Shown: in pieces, positions 55,452 to 62,882 of the stretch
Layout: every line of letters begins with the position of its first letter
Numbering within the stretch: the stretch's first letter is position 1
Assembly: GCF_020405205.1 (NCBI RefSeq)
Contig: NZ_CP084469.1
Location: 1,550,001-1,614,000 of the forward strand
Source of the DNA: Natrinema salinisoli
GTDB taxonomy: Archaea > Halobacteriota > Halobacteria > Halobacteriales > Natrialbaceae
Length of the DNA stretch: 64,000 nucleotides
Reading direction: 5' to 3'
Notes under the pieces: generated by a model
What the model saw: only the letters and a program-made list of their open reading frames with translations
Told to the model about the DNA's origin: nothing
Database searches by the model: none
Position numbers and translations under genes: made by a program

Positions 55452-55536
55452 GCGCGGGTAGCCAAGCTAGGCCAACGGCGCAGCGCTTAGGACGCTGTCT
55501 CGTAGGAGTCCGCCGGTTCAAATCCGGTCCCGCGCA
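55452..55536 (+). tRNA. tRNA-Leu (anticodon TAG)
   Basis: Acceptor strands GCGCGGG and CCCGCGC pair exactly, with discriminator A and no encoded CCA. The anticodon loop is CTTAGGA (anticodon TAG) on a CAGCG/CGCTG stem. The long variable arm with CTC...GAG and the T loop TTCAAAT fit a class II tRNA-Leu. The integrase gene starts 45 bases after its 3' end, making this the likely attachment site of the element on its right. Confidence 0.95.
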
Positions 55537-55581
55537 CTCCAACCCTTACGCAGTCTCGCGGTTCTGCTTGCGCCAGCAACC

Positions 55582-56604
55582 ATGACCGCGAGACAAAACG
55601 AACGCTGCGACATTCAAATCGAGAGCGGTCGCAGCATCAAAATCGTACCTGAACCGAACGAAGAACAGTTGAACGAAAAGCAACTCGTCGATTACCGCGA
55701 GCACCGATGGGGATTCATCGAGTGGCTTCGGGAGAAGGGGAAGACTCCGGAGAAGCGCGAAGGCTACAGCGATTACACAACTTACGAGACGACGTACAAG
55801 ACCGCGCGGTTCGACCGGTGGGTATGGGGTGAAGAGGACCGATACACGGTCCCGCCAACACCTGACCGCGCGACCGAGTACATAGACGACGTCGTCGCAT
55901 ACCGTGACGTCACGAACGCAACGAAAGGCAAAACGGAGGAAGCCTTGATGCGGTACTACCGCTGGGCAGAGACGACGTCTCACACGCCCCCATGGGACCG
56001 AGAGCAACGATTCCGGTCCGGAGGGAACGATGCCCCGAGGGACTACCTAACCCGCCGTGAGCGACGCCTGGTGCGCGAGACAGCGTTAGACACCGGTGAC
56101 GGGTGGCGCGTCGCATCTCTTGTGCTCACGTCACTCGATACCGGTCTCCGCCCGGTCGAAGTCGCGCGAGCCCGCCCGGCGTGGGTCGATGTGCAGAACA
56201 TGCTGATGCAAATCCCGAAAGAAGAGTCCAGCAAGAACACGGAGAACTGGCGAGTCTCACTGACATCCAGGACCGCGACCGCGCTCGAACACTGGTTAAC
56301 TGAGCGCGAGACCATCGACAAATACGGCGATCGTGACGAACTGTGGTTGACGAGGGAAGCGACGCCGTACGGGTCACGGTCACTCGCACGGTTACTGCGG
56401 CGACTGTGCGACGACGCAGGCATCGACACCGGCGGCAGGTCAATGACGTGGTACGCAATCCGTCACAGCTTAGGGACGTACATGACCGCAGAGCGAGATC
56501 TCAAAGCGGCGAAGGACCAGCTCCGTCACAAGTCGGCGAAAACGACGATGAAGTACGACCAGGTACCTGCCGAGGACCGCCGCGACGCGCTAGACAACAT
56601 GTAG
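55582..56604 (+). CDS. int: Tyrosine site-specific integrase
   Basis: A 340-residue integrase. A SAM-like N-terminal core (about 30-130) is followed by the catalytic domain with R190 (SLDTGLRPVEVAR), a Lys turn (IPKEESSKN), Y291-x2-R294-H295 in WYAIRHSLGTYM, H316 in QLRHKSAKTT and nucleophile Y325 in MKYDQVP. The usual HxxR is YxxR here. It would catalyse element entry and exit at the tRNA-Leu gene 45 bases before it. Confidence 0.93.
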   Translation: MTARQNERCDIQIESGRSIKIVPEPNEEQLNEKQLVDYREHRWGFIEWLREKGKTPEKREGYSDYTTYETTYKTARFDRWVWGEEDRYTVPPTPDRATEYIDDVVAYRDVTNATKGKTEEALMRYYRWAETTSHTPPWDREQRFRSGGNDAPRDYLTRRERRLVRETALDTGDGWRVASLVLTSLDTGLRPVEVARARPAWVDVQNMLMQIPKEESSKNTENWRVSLTSRTATALEHWLTERETIDKYGDRDELWLTREATPYGSRSLARLLRRLCDDAGIDTGGRSMTWYAIRHSLGTYMTAERDLKAAKDQLRHKSAKTTMKYDQVPAEDRRDALDNM

Positions 56605-56685
56605 TCAGTGACTGGTGCGACGGGTGGACCGTAGACCCGATGCGAGAGTATCGAGAGTTCCGGACACCCCCCGTCACCCTTCTCT

Positions 56686-56706
56686 AAAAATTTGTAGTCT
56701 CGTTGC
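56686..56706 (+). repeat. Dispersed element repeat, copy 1
   Basis: AAAAATTTGTAG... ending in CTCGTTGC, 81 bases after the integrase stop. Identical to copies 2 and 4. Confidence 0.85.
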
Positions 56707-56841: not shown

Positions 56842-56909
56842 GGGTAAATCCCCACGAAACGCCTTACACACCAAACACCCTCTTCGGATGAAACGACGTG
56901 TATTTACCC
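56842..56909. repeat. Spaced inverted repeat upstream of the recombinase-like gene
   Basis: GGGTAAAT (56842-56849) and ATTTACCC (56902-56909) are exact reverse complements. Related TTACCC/GGGTAT words recur to about 57060. They may be protein-binding sites in this 479-base gap, which otherwise holds no supported gene. Confidence 0.5.
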
Positions 56910-57083
56910 AGTGACTTACCCCAAACGAAGCGACGAGACGACGCGAAAAACTTTATCGACGTCGCAGCTACCGCGGCACGCACCCGGGTATCTACACACC
57001 CAGTAAACACCCACGTGAGAAACCCGTCGCGTAATTACCCAACCCGGTATTTCCGAGCGGCACCCCGACGTACGAGTGTAACA

Positions 57084-57782
57084 ATGACAAGCACAATCCT
57101 CCTCGCACGAGGCACCACGCCCGGGGAACGCGAACGCAGCATCGACACAATCCGCAGCTGGGCACGCGAACATAACGCCGGCATCCACCCAGACACCATC
57201 ACCGACCTGTACGAGTGGACCGAGTCGAACGCCACGACCGCCACAGCGAACCGCGACGACGAGTACCTATTCATCGTTCCCGGCGACGAGACCGCCCGCG
57301 ACCGGCAAGGCCCGGACGACCCCGCCGCCGCCGCAATCAACAAAGCATCGAGCGCGGCCGCAGCGAACCTCATCGTCGATTCCCTCGCAGGCATCAACAT
57401 CGACGCCGTCGCCCGGATAGTCACGCAAGACCGCGTACGCGTGCACGACGCCACGCACGCACTCACCGTTCACCCAGTCACCCGCGACCGCGACGACCTT
57501 CCCCCATCAACGCGACGAGCGCTGGAGGTGCTGGCCGGCACAGCCGACCATGCCGACGCGTTGCTCGCCGGGATCTCGTGGAACGGCGGGAGACCACCCT
57601 TGGGTTGCACGTCGGACGGCGCGCGACTCGCACCCGCCGACAACTACGACGACGTGTGTAGAGTGTTGCAACGCGTACGAGACGATGAACTATCGCAAAC
57701 CGAAGCATCGAACCGACTCGGATGCGCGCGCAAAACCGTCGGGAACGCGCTCGACCGCCCCGAACTCTACCGACTCGACTAA
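57084..57782 (+). CDS. Diverged serine-recombinase/resolvase-like protein with C-terminal HTH
   Basis: About 232 residues from MTSTILLARGTTPGERERSI. The C-terminal 60 residues (GRPPLGCTSDGARLAPADNY, VCRVLQRVRDDELSQTEAS and RLGCARKTVGNAL) look like the linker and helix-turn-helix of haloarchaeal serine recombinases. The N-terminal half shows no clear catalytic Ser-Arg site (no YxRVS/T motif), so it may be a degenerate recombinase working as a DNA-binding protein. It precedes the iteron region. A longer ATG at 56898 adds a region of repeats rather than protein-like text. Confidence 0.6.
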   Translation: MTSTILLARGTTPGERERSIDTIRSWAREHNAGIHPDTITDLYEWTESNATTATANRDDEYLFIVPGDETARDRQGPDDPAAAAINKASSAAAANLIVDSLAGINIDAVARIVTQDRVRVHDATHALTVHPVTRDRDDLPPSTRRALEVLAGTADHADALLAGISWNGGRPPLGCTSDGARLAPADNYDDVCRVLQRVRDDELSQTEASNRLGCARKTVGNALDRPELYRLD

Positions 57783-57870
57783 CGGCGAGGCGAGAGTCGA
57801 TGACTCCCGGTCACCGCGACCGGCACAGGCACCGCGAACCGCTCCGGTCACCCCGGACACACCCCCCGCT

Positions 57871-58173
57871 AAACCCCTGTCCGGCCTGAGCAGGTGCGAG
57901 AAGGCTTGATGCGTGTGATATCAAGGGGCGGACAGGCCGGACAAGGGTTTGGCCCCATTACCCCCTTACTCTACACTCTCAACACCAGTATACACTTTAT
58001 TGCGCCGATGTATACTACTGCAGAGAAGTGTTCACCGTTTCTTACTGAATTGGCCGATAACCCTTGTCCGCTTGTCCACCCCCTGAATTCTGCACGTAGA
58101 AGACTTGTACCGTGCTGTAAGCCCGGACAAGGGTTTGAGACAGGGTGTGTCCGGGGTGTCCACCCCTGTCCGG
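57871..58173. repeat. Five iteron-like repeats in alternating orientation (candidate origin)
   Basis: The motif CCGGACA(A/G)GGGTTT occurs forward at 57937-57950 and 58123-58136. It occurs as its reverse complement, with small changes, at 57871-57884, 58059-58070 and 58162-58173. Between the second and third copies, AGTATACA (57987-57994) and TGTATACT (58009-58016) form an AT-rich inverted repeat around 14 bases. Directional iterons flanking a melting-prone palindrome fit a plasmid or viral origin. The initiator is not identified. Confidence 0.65.
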
Positions 58174-58364
58174 AACAGACTATCGATGCAATCCGTGACA
58201 GGATGCGCTCACCGGTCAATGAGTATCGACCCTGTTGCGGAGCGGTTGCCTGTGTGAGGCGACCGGAGGGAGCCGAGTCCTGTTGGTGTGCGGGTGAGCG
58301 CGCGTCGTTGGTGTCGTCGATGCAATGGTTTTTCGGGAATCGCTGCACGGCGCGCGCCCCTTCT

Positions 58365-58385
58365 AAAAATTTGTAGTCTCGTTGC
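58365..58385 (+). repeat. Dispersed element repeat, copy 2
   Basis: The same 21-base sequence as copies 1 and 4, between the iteron block and the palindrome. Confidence 0.85.
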
Positions 58386-58471
58386 GGTTGTTCACGCGCG
58401 ATTCTCCGGTATGTTGAAGTGGCCTCGATTGTCCTTGACTTAAAGGTAGGCGAGTGGTGCTCTCCGGGTTA

Positions 58472-58489
58472 TGTTTCGTGCACGAAACA
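58472..58489. promoter_or_regulatory. Perfect 18-bp palindrome (operator candidate)
   Basis: TGTTTCGTGCACGAAACA is identical to its reverse complement. It lies about 120 bases before a TATA-like box and about 280 bases before the zinc-finger/helicase pair. Confidence 0.7.
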
Positions 58490-58610
58490 CGCAGACGCAC
58501 ATCGGAACCTAAACGAGCGTTAAGAGACTTCTACTCTGGGTTTAGGCGGTTCACTCGGTGGTTGGAGTGCCAATCGTGTAGTGACATCCTGGACCCCCTG
58601 CCTACCAGCC

Positions 58611-58616
58611 TTTATA
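58611..58616 (+). promoter_or_regulatory. TATA-like box before the replication operon
   Basis: TTTATA (as CCTTTATACG) would start a transcript near 58638, giving about 125 bases of leader before the ATG at 58765. Weak single-site evidence. Confidence 0.35.
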
Positions 58617-58764
58617 CGTCTACCGTCGATATGATAATGTAACTCGGTAGCAACCGCCCGCTAACAACCGCATCCGCTCAATCCCTGGATGCTAGACCAA
58701 ATGAAAATCGGTTGCGGCGCGCCACAACGCGCCGCCCTTGCGTGTCACCGGGGGAGTCACTCCA

Positions 58765-59235
58765 ATGACACGAGAATCTAACGGTACGACGGCTGATAAA
58801 ACCGCTGGCTTCAACGCGAAGCCAGTGTCTGTAGTATTGAACGGTAACCAAATCGAAGCGCAGCACCACATTACGAGCGCGAACAACCGGTTGCTGCACC
58901 TGTACATCGAATCCCGGACCGGCGGGATTGACGTGACGGTCCCGCTGTGCAGCGATAAACCAGCGTACGCACGGTCAGACCGCGGTAAAGCGGCGCTCGG
59001 TATCGGTACTGACGATGAGGAACCTCGACTCGTGGCGGACGGCGGTCAGCGAGTTGGTCGGTACACCGACAACGGTCAGCGTTTCTGTTCCGAGTGCGGT
59101 GACCCCGTTGACGACGGGTTGTGGTGCTCGGACGAGTGCAAGGACGAGTACTGGGACAGTGAGCCGGACCTTGGAACGCGTGATGATGACGAAGAGGTAG
59201 AGCGGTACAACCACGCGACTGGGAGGTGGCACTAA
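58765..59235 (+). CDS. Element-encoded zinc-finger protein
   Basis: A 156-residue protein. The first 70 residues carry strand-rich text (PVSVVLNGNQIEAQHHITS). A zinc-finger-like block FCSECGDPVDDGLWCSDEC lies near residues 108-126 (C-x2-C and C-x3-C), followed by an acidic end. It starts at ATG 58765-58767; an in-frame 58738 start adds nine residues. Its stop overlaps the helicase ATG (TAATG), so the two are co-translated. It may guide the helicase to DNA; that is inference. Confidence 0.78.
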   Translation: MTRESNGTTADKTAGFNAKPVSVVLNGNQIEAQHHITSANNRLLHLYIESRTGGIDVTVPLCSDKPAYARSDRGKAALGIGTDDEEPRLVADGGQRVGRYTDNGQRFCSECGDPVDDGLWCSDECKDEYWDSEPDLGTRDDDEEVERYNHATGRWH

Positions 59236-62207
59236 TGCCACGAGACGAGCGGCACGATCGTGGCGATGACGAGGAGCAGTTACCGGACATGAACGCGGAC
59301 GACGCGCTGGACGGTGTGACGACCGCGGACAGCATCGACTCCAACGACGACGTTGACCTGGGTGTTGACATGGACGCCGGTGACGTGAACGAGTTAGACC
59401 CGGTGGTGAACAGTGACGGGACGGTCGTCGCCCACCCGGTCGGTCTTGAAGCGCTCGCAGACCCTGAATCAGGGAAGTACGCGTGCATCGAGTGTGACGC
59501 TCGGTCCGGAAGCGAGCACGCGGCGAAGGTTCACTTCGGGAAATCACACCCGAACCACGACCCCGACGACGACGTTGACACGGGCGCGAGTTCCGCGTCA
59601 GTGGACGTGGACATCGTCGAAGTTGCGAACGAGTACATCGATGAGCGTATTCGGGAAGCCGGACTCGCATCGGACCCGAGCGACCACGACTACGGTGACG
59701 TGCCGGACGTGGACGGCGTGACGCTTCGCGCGGCGAAGCACACGCACTCGCGGTTCACGGACGTCGTCGTTGCGGTCGAGAACGGCGTGGATACCGGTGA
59801 CGTTCTCGATGTCATCGAGGCAATGCCGCACGGGTCACAGGATGCGAAGATAGGGTCCGTGTACATAATCATCGCTGACCGCCCGCAGAACCTTCACGGA
59901 GCGTACGACGACCTGCAGGGTAGTCTCAGTGATTACGGGCACGTGACCGACGTGATGGGAGTCGAAGCTGACGGCAGTGTCGTCACCGCGGAACCACCAG
60001 TCACCCCGGACGAAACAGACGATGCGGAAGACTGGAGTGACTTAGATATCGGCACGACCGACGATGACGACGACGGTGGTGCTGTCGATGACGATGAGAT
60101 AACGTGGGGCGACGTCCGCGACGCGTACGCGAACGCTCGCGTACAAGCGTCACCGGTCACTCGGAACGACGCTCGTGACCGAGTCGTCGCCGTGCTCGAA
60201 AGTGAATGCGAGTGGATGAGTATCGTTGAACGGTCGGAACCCGGGAAGTACGACTTGTGGCATCTCACCGGCGACGGGTGGCAAGAAGACGGGTACACGC
60301 ACGTTGAAACGCAGATGCGGACCGAGCTCGGTGCAATCGCATCGGACACGGAAGTCGGTCACATCGTCGCGCAGTTGGCGACCGTGAATTACGTCGAGCA
60401 GGAGGAAACGAACGCCCGGCACCTCGATGAAACGTTCATCCCGGTCGGGAATGGTGTCATCAACGTAGACGACATCGAGTACGACCCGGCGACGATGACA
60501 ATCGACTGGGACACCGTCACCGTGCAGGACATGGACTCGGAACACCGGTTCCTGTACAGAGTTGAAACTGACTGGGATCCCGAGAACGCGGACCTGGACG
60601 GACTCGATGAATGGCTCGAAACCATTACTCGCACCGACGAAGAACGACGGTTAATCTGGGAGTTCGCCGGGCACTCGGCGCACCCAAGGTACCCAGCGGA
60701 CGGGTTCACCGTGTTCAACGGGCGCGGCGGGTCGGGTAAGTCACAGACGCTCGAAGTGATTAAAGCGATGCTCGGCGGTTCGAACGTCGCGGTTGAGACG
60801 ATGCAATCGATTCAAACCGAGCGGTTCGCCGGTCGGCGAGTTGTCGATAAGCGCGCGAACATCAACACCGAGTTAGAAGGCACGAAAATGCCGAGTATCG
60901 GGACGCTCAAGACGTTCAGTGCTGGTGAGGAAGTGAGTGTCGAGGGGAAGGGAACCGCGGCATTCGACGCGCTTAACGACGCGACGATGATGTTCGCGTC
61001 AGATTCCCCGCCGGCGTTCCCGCAGTCGAACCGCGCGGTTGGTCGCCGGGTGTACCCGGTCGAGTTCCCGTGCATCTACAAGAGCGACCCGGACCCCGAC
61101 AATCCGCTCGAACTCCAGTCACGACCGAAAGGCAAGGTGCAGGACGAGTTGCAGGCGGACGCGCGACTCAAAGCCGCGTTGATGCGTGCCGTGGAAGGGC
61201 TCGTGCGAATACTCCGTGAGGGTGATTTCACGAGCGAGCTCACCGAGAACGAGCGCTTGGAGAAGTACGAGTCGTTCGCCGACCCCATCCGCGACTCGGT
61301 ACGCGAGTGCGTGCAGCCGTGCAGTGACGGTGTCATCGAGTCCGGTGACCTTGAAAGGACGCTCGGTGCGTACATGGATATGGCTGGGCACGACGGGAAG
61401 AAGATGCAGCAAATCTGGAACGTCATGCAGGAAATGACGGACATCCCAGTCACCAAGGACCGCACGCGGACCTTCGCTGAAGATAAGGAGAAGCACACGG
61501 TTTACGAAGGCATCGGGTTCACCGACGCCGCGCTGGAGCACTGTGTCCCTGATTCGGCGTACTGGGGCGAGTACACGGACCAGGACGACGTCGAGGACGA
61601 CGAGTTCGAAGGCGTGGAACTCGGTGAAATCACTGACCCCGGTCGGTACGACGCGGTGAAAGTCACGGTCGCGTCAGTGGAAGATGAACCGGCACCGTGG
61701 CTGCACGACCAGGGTGTCCTGATGGATGACAGTCACTCGCTCCGGTACGAGGTGCAGTCTGGGATCTCGCTCGATGAAGGCGAGGTGTACGTGCTCCGTG
61801 ACGTCATCGTAGCGAAGGACGAAGCGGACCTGAAGATGCAACTCATCGACGGGATGACTGACGTGTTCCGCATCGAGGAGCGGGATGACGAGCAGGACGC
61901 CGCAGTGGAAGACCCGGAGACTGGTGACTCGCCCGGATACGCAGACGACAGTGAAGACTCAGGAACGGTTGAGGAACCCGCGTACCGTGACGGTGACGGC
62001 GACGAAGCCGATGACAGGGTGACGGTGAAGGACATCGTCAGCAACGTGGAAGACGCGCACGATGACGGTGCGCCGGTCGATAAAGTCATCGAGCTCGCAA
62101 TGCACGACGCCGGTCTCGACCGCGGTGAAGTCGAGCACAAGTTGGAGAAACTCCGGCACACGGGCGACGTGTACGAACCGTCGAAAAACCTGTTGAGGGT
62201 GGTCTAA
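59235..62207 (+). CDS. SF3 (D5/P4-type) replicative helicase with OB-like and MCM-like winged-helix ends
   Basis: 990 residues. An acidic N-terminus is followed by a C2H2-like finger (C84, C87, H100, H105 in YACIECDARSG...FGKSHPNH). A D5_N-like region (about 310-480) precedes the SF3 ATPase with Walker A GRGGSGKS (496-503), a possible Walker B around RANINTELEG, and Arg-rich NRAVGRRVYPVE. After a helical part (640-760), residues about 797-880 look like an OB fold (YDAVKVTVASVEDEPAPW). The last 60 residues (VKDIVSNVEDAHDDGAPVDKVIEL...VYEPSKNLLRVV) resemble the archaeal MCM winged helix. No AEP primase DxD was found. Confidence 0.85.
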   Translation: MPRDERHDRGDDEEQLPDMNADDALDGVTTADSIDSNDDVDLGVDMDAGDVNELDPVVNSDGTVVAHPVGLEALADPESGKYACIECDARSGSEHAAKVHFGKSHPNHDPDDDVDTGASSASVDVDIVEVANEYIDERIREAGLASDPSDHDYGDVPDVDGVTLRAAKHTHSRFTDVVVAVENGVDTGDVLDVIEAMPHGSQDAKIGSVYIIIADRPQNLHGAYDDLQGSLSDYGHVTDVMGVEADGSVVTAEPPVTPDETDDAEDWSDLDIGTTDDDDDGGAVDDDEITWGDVRDAYANARVQASPVTRNDARDRVVAVLESECEWMSIVERSEPGKYDLWHLTGDGWQEDGYTHVETQMRTELGAIASDTEVGHIVAQLATVNYVEQEETNARHLDETFIPVGNGVINVDDIEYDPATMTIDWDTVTVQDMDSEHRFLYRVETDWDPENADLDGLDEWLETITRTDEERRLIWEFAGHSAHPRYPADGFTVFNGRGGSGKSQTLEVIKAMLGGSNVAVETMQSIQTERFAGRRVVDKRANINTELEGTKMPSIGTLKTFSAGEEVSVEGKGTAAFDALNDATMMFASDSPPAFPQSNRAVGRRVYPVEFPCIYKSDPDPDNPLELQSRPKGKVQDELQADARLKAALMRAVEGLVRILREGDFTSELTENERLEKYESFADPIRDSVRECVQPCSDGVIESGDLERTLGAYMDMAGHDGKKMQQIWNVMQEMTDIPVTKDRTRTFAEDKEKHTVYEGIGFTDAALEHCVPDSAYWGEYTDQDDVEDDEFEGVELGEITDPGRYDAVKVTVASVEDEPAPWLHDQGVLMDDSHSLRYEVQSGISLDEGEVYVLRDVIVAKDEADLKMQLIDGMTDVFRIEERDDEQDAAVEDPETGDSPGYADDSEDSGTVEEPAYRDGDGDEADDRVTVKDIVSNVEDAHDDGAPVDKVIELAMHDAGLDRGEVEHKLEKLRHTGDVYEPSKNLLRVV

Positions 62208-62834
62208 ATGCCAGGAGTGACGTTCGACCGAATGGCGAAAATCCGGCACAACCGTTCGACACTGCACCGGCTCCCCGCGCCGGGCGTCAGGTGGCGGTGG
62301 GGTGACGTCGTCGATGATTACGGTGACGGTGACGATGCTAAGGTGTCGAAGAAGGATGCGTACGCCGTGAAGCCGTTGTTACGGAAGGTCGATGACGGTG
62401 TGTACGAGACGACCGAGCGACTCGCGGAGTACCTCGATGATATGTGGGGCATCGAAGTCGGTGCGAACGGCGGCGCGGGTCAGTCGCGGCTCCCGGTTGA
62501 GACGGCCGTCACGGGCGAGTCACGGACGTTGACTGACGGGTCCGGGTCACCGCCCGACTCGGGCGGTGAACGCCGGCAGGCGGCGTTGGACGGGTCTGAT
62601 GCGACCGCGGATGTGCGAGCGGTCGCAGTGCAGGAAGACCCGCGGGTCATCGGGGCGTACAAGAGGAATCCGTCGCCGAAGCACGATACCGCCGCGCAGG
62701 ATGCGGGGCAGGCGGGTCTCGATGCGTTCACCGTGACCGGCGACGCTGGCGCGGTGCCGGGTGACGTGGACGCGTTCACAGTGACTGAGTGGGTCGGCCG
62801 ATTCCGTCGGCCGACCGGGAACGTGTACGCGTAA
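62208..62834 (+). CDS. Element-encoded hypothetical protein following the helicase
   Basis: 208 residues. Start MPGVTFDRMAKIRHNRSTLHR directly follows the helicase stop (TAA-ATG), so it belongs to the same operon. Residues 30-85 have WRWGDVVDDYGDGDDAKVSK and YETTERLAEYLDDMWGIEV. A short DAFTVT text appears twice near the end. The middle is low-complexity. No family recognised. Confidence 0.65.
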   Translation: MPGVTFDRMAKIRHNRSTLHRLPAPGVRWRWGDVVDDYGDGDDAKVSKKDAYAVKPLLRKVDDGVYETTERLAEYLDDMWGIEVGANGGAGQSRLPVETAVTGESRTLTDGSGSPPDSGGERRQAALDGSDATADVRAVAVQEDPRVIGAYKRNPSPKHDTAAQDAGQAGLDAFTVTGDAGAVPGDVDAFTVTEWVGRFRRPTGNVYA

Positions 62835-62860: not shown

Positions 62861-62882
62861 AAAAATTTGTAGTTTGTCGTTG
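62861..62882 (+). repeat. Dispersed element repeat, copy 3 (variant)
   Basis: AAAAATTTGTAGT followed by TTGTCGTTG, 26 bases after the operon's last stop codon. The first 13 bases match the other copies; the rest differs slightly. Confidence 0.7.

Follow-up and report, generated by a model that had tools for sequence, protein, structure and literature searches.

In phage P4 the alpha protein reads the P4 repeats through its winged helix (according to PMC4234260), and in the Staphylococcus aureus pathogenicity islands (SaPIs) Rep binds iterons with its C-terminal domain, as does the isolated C-terminal domain of Cch2 from the staphylococcal cassette chromosome mec (SCCmec) (PMC7581432). Origins of the phage-inducible chromosomal islands (PICIs) have a pair of iteron sets flanking an AT-rich region (PMC6092414). 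In archaea the precedents are stem-loop or hairpin origins, both for superfamily 3 (SF3) replication proteins and for pleolipoviruses: Sulfolobus pRN1 has a 100-nt stem-loop without iterons (PMC4234260), and the betapleolipovirus SNJ2 has a rolling-circle Rep acting at a hairpin (PMC13107129). A survey of pleolipovirus genomes reports diverse replication genes, one P4-like primase among them, and the text searched mentions neither origins nor iterons (PMC10599561). Here we analyzed a stretch of 64,000 nucleotides from Natrinema salinisoli (the window; positions 1550001-1614000 of a 4,190,307-base contig in a 4.7-Mb genome), which carries an element integrated at a tRNA-Leu gene. Within this element, two mirrored iteron half-modules flank an AT-rich centre at 57846-58173 (no strand assigned). 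We consider it very likely that this block is an initiator-dependent replication origin of the element, presumably bound by the element's own SF3/P4-family helicase. The assignment is based on the mirror arrangement, which is conserved next to the helicase gene, and on a concerted change of the iterons in a close relative.

The block contains ten iterons with a GGACA core across 57855-58171, compared with 0.71 expected per 370 bp, and the runner-up 370-bp stretch within the window has three such cores. The cores start at +57855, -57878, +57930, +57939, -58065, -58073, +58125, -58148, -58157, and -58167, where the sign gives the strand. Written as arrows with start-to-start distances in bp and the central gap in square brackets, the map reads > 23 < 52 > 9 > [126] < 8 < 52 > 23 < 9 < 10 <. 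The left half consists of an outer iteron (core 57855-57859, plus strand), a single inverted iteron (core 57878-57882, minus strand, within CCGGACAGGGGTTT), and an inner tandem pair with a 9-bp period (GGACAGGCC GGACAAGGGTTT; 57930-57943, plus strand); a degenerate core, GGTCA, was read directly from the sequence at 57846, 9 bp outside the outer iteron. The right half has an inner tandem pair with an 8-bp period (GGACAAGC GGACAAGGGTTA in the minus-strand reading; 58065-58077, minus strand), a single inverted iteron (CCGGACAAGGGTTT; core 58125-58129, plus strand), and three outer iterons in tandem (58148, 58157, and 58167; 58148-58171, minus strand). About a dyad centre at 58003.5 there are four mirror pairs, each within 1 bp, a symmetry equalled in 6 of 20000 trials in which ten sites were placed at random.

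An earlier note on this stretch had described five copies of the 14-mer CCGGACA(A/G)GGGTTT in alternating orientation. Their positions and orientations were right, with three copies exact and two carrying two mismatches each, and the count fell short of the ten sites of the mirror layout. The exact 14-mer is found three times in the 4.7-Mb genome, and all three copies are inside the block. At a loose threshold of three mismatches, the 14-mer was not enriched across the window (14 matches against a mean of 9.0 expected; 10 of 100 shuffles reached 14), and the signal of the cluster is one of local crowding. The best 8-mer in the block scored 6.00, compared with a mean of 3.25 and a maximum of 4.75 in 60 shuffles. 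The note had also raised the possibility of repeats arising by chance from local base composition; the clustering exceeds that in both shuffled sequence and random placements, and base composition does not account for it.

The centre of the block (57966-58055, no strand assigned) is a proposed unwinding element, with an AT fraction of approximately 0.50-0.60 in 30-bp windows and 0.53 for the block centre, compared with 0.36 for the locus. The earlier note had called it the only AT-rich patch, which holds for its composition and fails for its uniqueness, because the promoter region at 58360-58640 has AT-rich stretches as well. The palindromic arms that the note had placed there, AGTATACA and TGTATACT, are present. 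We rejected the palindrome as a functional part, as its stem is no better than that of shuffled spacers in the window (p-value = 0.17). Across the family the central-stem signal was weak (combined p-value = 0.013, carried by few members), and no trace of the palindrome was seen in the closest relative. Helical phasing of the distance between the single iteron and the inner pair gave a p-value of 0.066 and is not claimed. Between the neighboring ORFs of 294 and 165 residues lie 955 bp without a convincing gene. Mechanical open reading frames (ORFs) of at most 160 residues do run across the block, so the statement that no gene fits there needs qualifying, and none of these ORFs is common to relatives.

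To follow the layout into other elements, we gathered loci encoding helicase relatives from plasmids, from viruses, and from whole genomes in the class, choosing 44 loci by helicase homology. First peptide scans of genome and viral contigs gave no close relatives, and later scans found three Halorubrum genomes and two viral contigs. We applied a detector blind to the motif, which looks for tandem 8-mers at a period of 8-11 and inverted arms 40-150 bp apart. It found 45 clusters in 573 kb, compared with 5 in shuffled sequence. When only clusters with at least three supporting pairs were considered, the 124 kb lying no more than 1.5 kb from the helicase gene held 20 and the remaining 343 kb held 6 (p-value = 1e-7), and 17 of the 20 helicase-adjacent clusters had a period of 9. 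In most of the closer relatives, the top inverted-repeat cluster of the fetched stretch adjoins the helicase gene. A search for the block at the DNA level in 125 genomes of the family gave no full-length match beyond its own genome, as expected if iteron letters drift.

A mirror layout beside the helicase gene was found in elements of Halorubrum, Halomicrobium, Haloterrigena, Halarchaeum, and Halomarina, in one halovirus, and in one Salinibacter plasmid, with differing iteron letters. The common layout is > 10 > 22-24 < 42-63 > 9 > [gap] followed by its mirror, with iterons GGTAGAGG, GGTCAAGG, ACGTCCAA, TGAGTCAA, and TGGTCCGA. The half of Halomicrobium urmianum reads > 10 > 24 < 46 > 9 > [105] plus mirror (iteron GGTAGAGG) and that of Halomarina > 9 > 10 > 24 < 42 > 9 > [66] plus mirror (iteron TGAGTCAA); the iteron is GGTCAGGG in Haloterrigena turkmenica plasmid pHTUR06 and ACGTCCAA in Halarchaeum. 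In L055, L103, L104, L107, and L120 mainly the inner pairs are visible. The distance from the single iteron to the inner pair varies from 42 to 73 bp between elements, and the two halves of one element agree (11 of 12 within 2 bp, r = 0.95), which is not expected of a chance layout.

Two of these blocks lie outside the haloarchaeal genomes. In the Halorubrum tailed virus (HRTV) OP630576, a mirrored iteron block, which is a candidate origin, is located directly 3' of the helicase gene, there annotated as a hypothetical protein (L142 7581-7874). A mirrored block is also found directly 3' of a P4-family primase gene in the bacterial plasmid pSR11 of Salinibacter ruber (L144 2732-2860).

The closest relative is in Halorubrum aidingense, where the helicase core is 66% identical, the gene order is the same, and the block aligns with that of the window from end to end. 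At nine of the ten iterons the GGACA of the window is GTCCA in H. aidingense, the exception being the site at 58167. A concerted change from GGAC to GTCC is expected if a single sequence-specific protein with altered specificity reads all of the sites. The earlier note had looked to conservation of the motif in homologous elements, and this is borne out at the level of architecture, with the motif itself kept in the closest relative save for the concerted two-base switch.

The proposed initiator is the SF3/D5_N-type helicase of the P4 primase family encoded at 59226-62207 on the plus strand (993 residues), which agrees with the replication helicase that the note had placed downstream. It matches PF19263 (2.8e-12) and a PHROG DNA primase family (1.6e-38); its match to TIGR01613 (1.3e-21) is under the curated cut-off. 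All helicase relatives scanned match DUF5906, nearly all match D5_N, and in many this is followed directly by a winged helix of Pox_D5/RFX-like type. The corresponding region of the window protein (residues ~700-768; 61323-61529, plus strand), which follows the SF3 core and is the proposed iteron reader, aligns with the stretch of the relatives that scores for Pox_D5/RFX, and Pfam alone gives no call there. At the C-terminus is a second winged helix, related to MCM (62022-62195, plus strand; PF21120, 0.0034). We modelled the helicase fold from a 4-sequence alignment, and with a mean predicted local distance difference test score (pLDDT) of 40.6 the usable parts are the initial ~100 residues of the modelled fragment together with the winged helix at the C-terminus, which was modelled as H-H-H-E-E with a pLDDT of ~70 (a shallow model). 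The C-terminus of the helicase has matches in most genomes of the family (E of ~1e-8 to 1e-13, ~35-47% identity), and its sequence suggests that this MCM-like winged helix was captured from a host MCM gene. Among the 24 block-bearing elements no gene besides the helicase is common to more than six, in keeping with the helicase as the proposed reader of the iterons. A host protein is unlikely to read the iterons, because their letters differ among elements.

By analogy with P4, SaPI/PICI, and SCCmec Cch2, a mechanism can be proposed. The helicase would bind the GGACARGGG iterons through its winged-helix region, and each mirrored half-module would nucleate one helicase ring, such that two rings assemble facing each other. 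These rings would melt the AT-rich centre and then diverge, giving bidirectional theta replication on the excised circle. The initiator-dependent origin that the earlier note had suggested is in this sense supported by the sequence, through a cluster that is not due to chance, a conserved architecture, a common SF3/P4 helicase partner, and P4-like spacing.

Several observations weigh against this assignment. The strict detector was passed by only 19 of the 44 loci, and the window and H. aidingense fail it because of their arm periods of 9 and 8, both having been recognized by site mapping. The helicase is present in all loci by construction, as it was the selection criterion. The D5-type winged helix is only weakly recognizable in the window protein. 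In addition, the block is 1.05 kb upstream of the helicase gene, whereas in PICIs the origin lies directly 3' of rep.

The position upstream of the ORF165-helicase operon (ORF165 being the 165-residue ORF) would also fit an operator or promoter-control array of that operon, and initiators often autoregulate. The closest TATA-like sequence before the operon (~58612), however, is more than 400 bp from the block, and neither an AT-rich centre nor a 320-bp mirror is needed by an operator. Moreover, in L055, L107, L120, L117, HRTV (L142), and Salinibacter pSR11 (L144) a block of this kind lies at the helicase gene's 3' end, where it could not control that gene. A position that varies in this way, upstream here and 3' of the gene in several relatives, speaks against simple operator function, and we regard this explanation as improbable. 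A hairpin origin, as in pRN1 or in rolling-circle Rep-Arvir elements, has even less to recommend it. The long arms of the block could pair (42 nt, 79%), and there are precedents in pRN1, whose SF3 replication protein uses a stem-loop (PMC4234260), and in the pleolipovirus SNJ2, which uses a hairpin and a rolling-circle Rep (PMC13107129). A hairpin, however, has no need of tandem 9-bp repeats or of additional copies in the same direction, and the unequal arm periods of 9 and 8 bp disrupt pairing. The detector found no such block in the betapleolipovirus HHPV3, and the proteins searched included no rolling-circle Rep, making a hairpin origin very unlikely.

The neighboring 294-residue protein, a distant relative of serine recombinases with a helix-turn-helix (HTH), raises the possibility that the block is its resolution or recombination site, since the gene is adjacent and its homologues are equally placed in the closest relatives. 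It is present in only 6 of the 24 block-bearing elements, which also led us to reject this protein as the common iteron reader, and the gene is not near the block in pHTUR06, Halarchaeum, or Halomarina; a recombination site is thus highly unlikely. Least probable of all is a partition site, or centromere, of the element. The iteron array is real, and inverted iteron arrays are also typical of parS-like sites, but no ParA or ParB was found among the element proteins searched, the constant partner of the block is a replicative helicase, and the AT-rich centre better suits an origin. Taken together, we favor an origin read by the element's helicase.

The element that this origin would serve has a tRNA-Leu gene (55452-55537, plus strand; ARAGORN) as its left attachment site. 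The 3' half of this gene is repeated at window-equivalent positions 81076-81135, 25.6 kb downstream and beyond the window, and the region is therefore an integrated element of ~25.6 kb. Next to the tRNA gene is a tyrosine integrase (55582-56604, plus strand; Pfam PF00589, 3.5e-15), with homologues that are 64-74% identical at the same position in the relative loci L096, L097, L062, and L110. The 294-residue ORF (56898-57782, plus strand) carries its HTH at the C-terminus; its homologue adjoins the iteron block upstream in L096, L097, L098, L099, and L062, and the Halomicrobium homologue matches PF00239 at 1.5e-8. ORF165 (58738-59235, plus strand), which has a weak Zn-ribbon-like stretch, immediately precedes the helicase gene and has homologues in L096 (67% identical) and, more weakly, in L110, L097, L062, and L099. 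An ORF of 208 residues (62208-62834, plus strand) is immediately 3' of the helicase, and its homologues follow the helicase in L096, L097, and L098, and also in L050 and L062.

The ATPase of the element is 34-41% identical to the ATPases of HHPV3, HHPV4, and HRPV-3 over 97-99% of its length, with 41% identity to the pleolipoviruses HHPV3 and HHPV4. Further proteins match PHROG families of function not assigned there, from prokaryote viruses. The element also encodes a phrog_3526 protein and a twin-arginine translocation (TAT)-signal protein, for which tblastn gave no phage match. Of the conserved Pleolipoviridae core, which comprises a VP3-like protein, a spike, ORF6/7-like proteins, and an ATPase, the ATPase is present and VP3 was not identified. 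Judged by its ATPase sequence the element is related to pleolipoviruses, and we do not claim full membership. The earlier note had spoken of an undescribed element, which is not wholly so given the tRNA-Leu integration and the pleolipovirus-like ATPase; in the open-access literature we found no description of an archaeal mirrored iteron origin family.

The right attachment region (L012 7076-7360; window-equivalent 81076-81360) has the tRNA-Leu 3' half followed by two more consecutive partial copies. At L012 4870-5559 there is a partial integrase of 229 residues. These partial copies and the partial integrase are signs of nested or repeated integrations at tRNA-Leu. We also observed an intergenic repeated block, TCTAAAAATTTGTAGTCTCGTTGC, at 56683-56706, 58362-58385, and ~63406, with similar sequence at 62862 and 70732 (window-equivalent), which is perhaps a common promoter or operator of the element's operons. 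A second repeat, AACCCsKTATTTACGAGC, is TATA-like, has a GGG-rich lead in most copies, and occurs at ~57041, 63462, 66980, 70021, and 70870 (window-equivalent).

Many haloarchaeal elements that encode a P4-family helicase, among them plasmids, proviruses, and viruses, have to our knowledge no known origin, and none was found for them in the literature searched. Because the layout is legible without the iteron sequence, it could allow origins to be predicted across such elements, and it suggests a possible source of compatible haloarchaeal vectors. With the switch from GGAC to GTCC between two close relatives, it becomes possible to test directly how the DNA specificity of SF3 initiators changes. 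For pleolipovirus-like elements, the proposed origin points to a replication mode other than rolling circle.

Among the described systems, haloarchaeal Orc1/Cdc6 origins with their origin recognition boxes (ORBs) also have inverted repeats around an AT-rich element (PMC3528665). Unlike in these, the iterons here are short and tandem and the adjoining gene encodes an SF3 helicase, and no Orc1/Cdc6 domain was found in the flanking proteins searched, which sets the block apart from an ORB origin. Like the element, pRN1 encodes an SF3 replication protein that carries a winged helix at its C-terminus, but in place of its compact stem-loop without iterons the block has ten tandem and inverted iterons. 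The element also differs from SNJ2 in having a P4-family helicase and a predicted iteron origin. Compared with the SaPI/PICI systems, the host is an archaeon and the proposed origin precedes the helicase gene; a PICI or SaPI island has its origin directly 3' of rep, the PICI gene order, and induction by a helper phage, and here ORF165 lies between the block and the helicase and a pleolipovirus-like gene lies downstream.

The closest likeness is to phage P4. The P4 alpha protein and the window helicase are SF3 helicases of the same P4 family, and the D5_N/DUF5906 helicase near the block is what a P4/PICI-type iteron origin has beside it. In the P4 record, the annotated type I repeats give > 10 > 11 > 22 < 43 > 10 > for ori, and crr, by annotation < 9 < 43 > 18 > 14 <, starts like a mirrored archaeal half. 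The P4 ori, with iterons of 8 bp that stand in tandem at 9-11 bp, corresponds to one archaeal half-module, and its spacings differ from those of the Halomarina half by at most 2 bp. The spacing is 23/52/9 in the window, 22/43/10 in P4, and 22-24/42-46/9 in other members, such that the 52 of the window exceeds the 43 of P4 by 9 bp. The iteron letters differ from those of P4, and a Toprim primase domain was not called in the window helicase. P4 has a single module at ori and its crr more than 4 kb away, whereas here two modules face each other across an AT-rich centre within a single block of 320 bp. We conclude that the block is, from its layout and helicase, a well-supported candidate for an archaeal, mirrored variant of the P4/PICI-type origin, itself known in bacteria. 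More tentatively, P4 and a large archaeal family may have a spacing grammar in common, with an outer tandem, a single inverted copy 22-24 bp off, and an inner tandem pair 42-73 bp further, while the letters drift freely. The archaeal origin would then be two such modules face to face, and ori and crr of P4 could be the split halves of one symmetric two-ring loading site.
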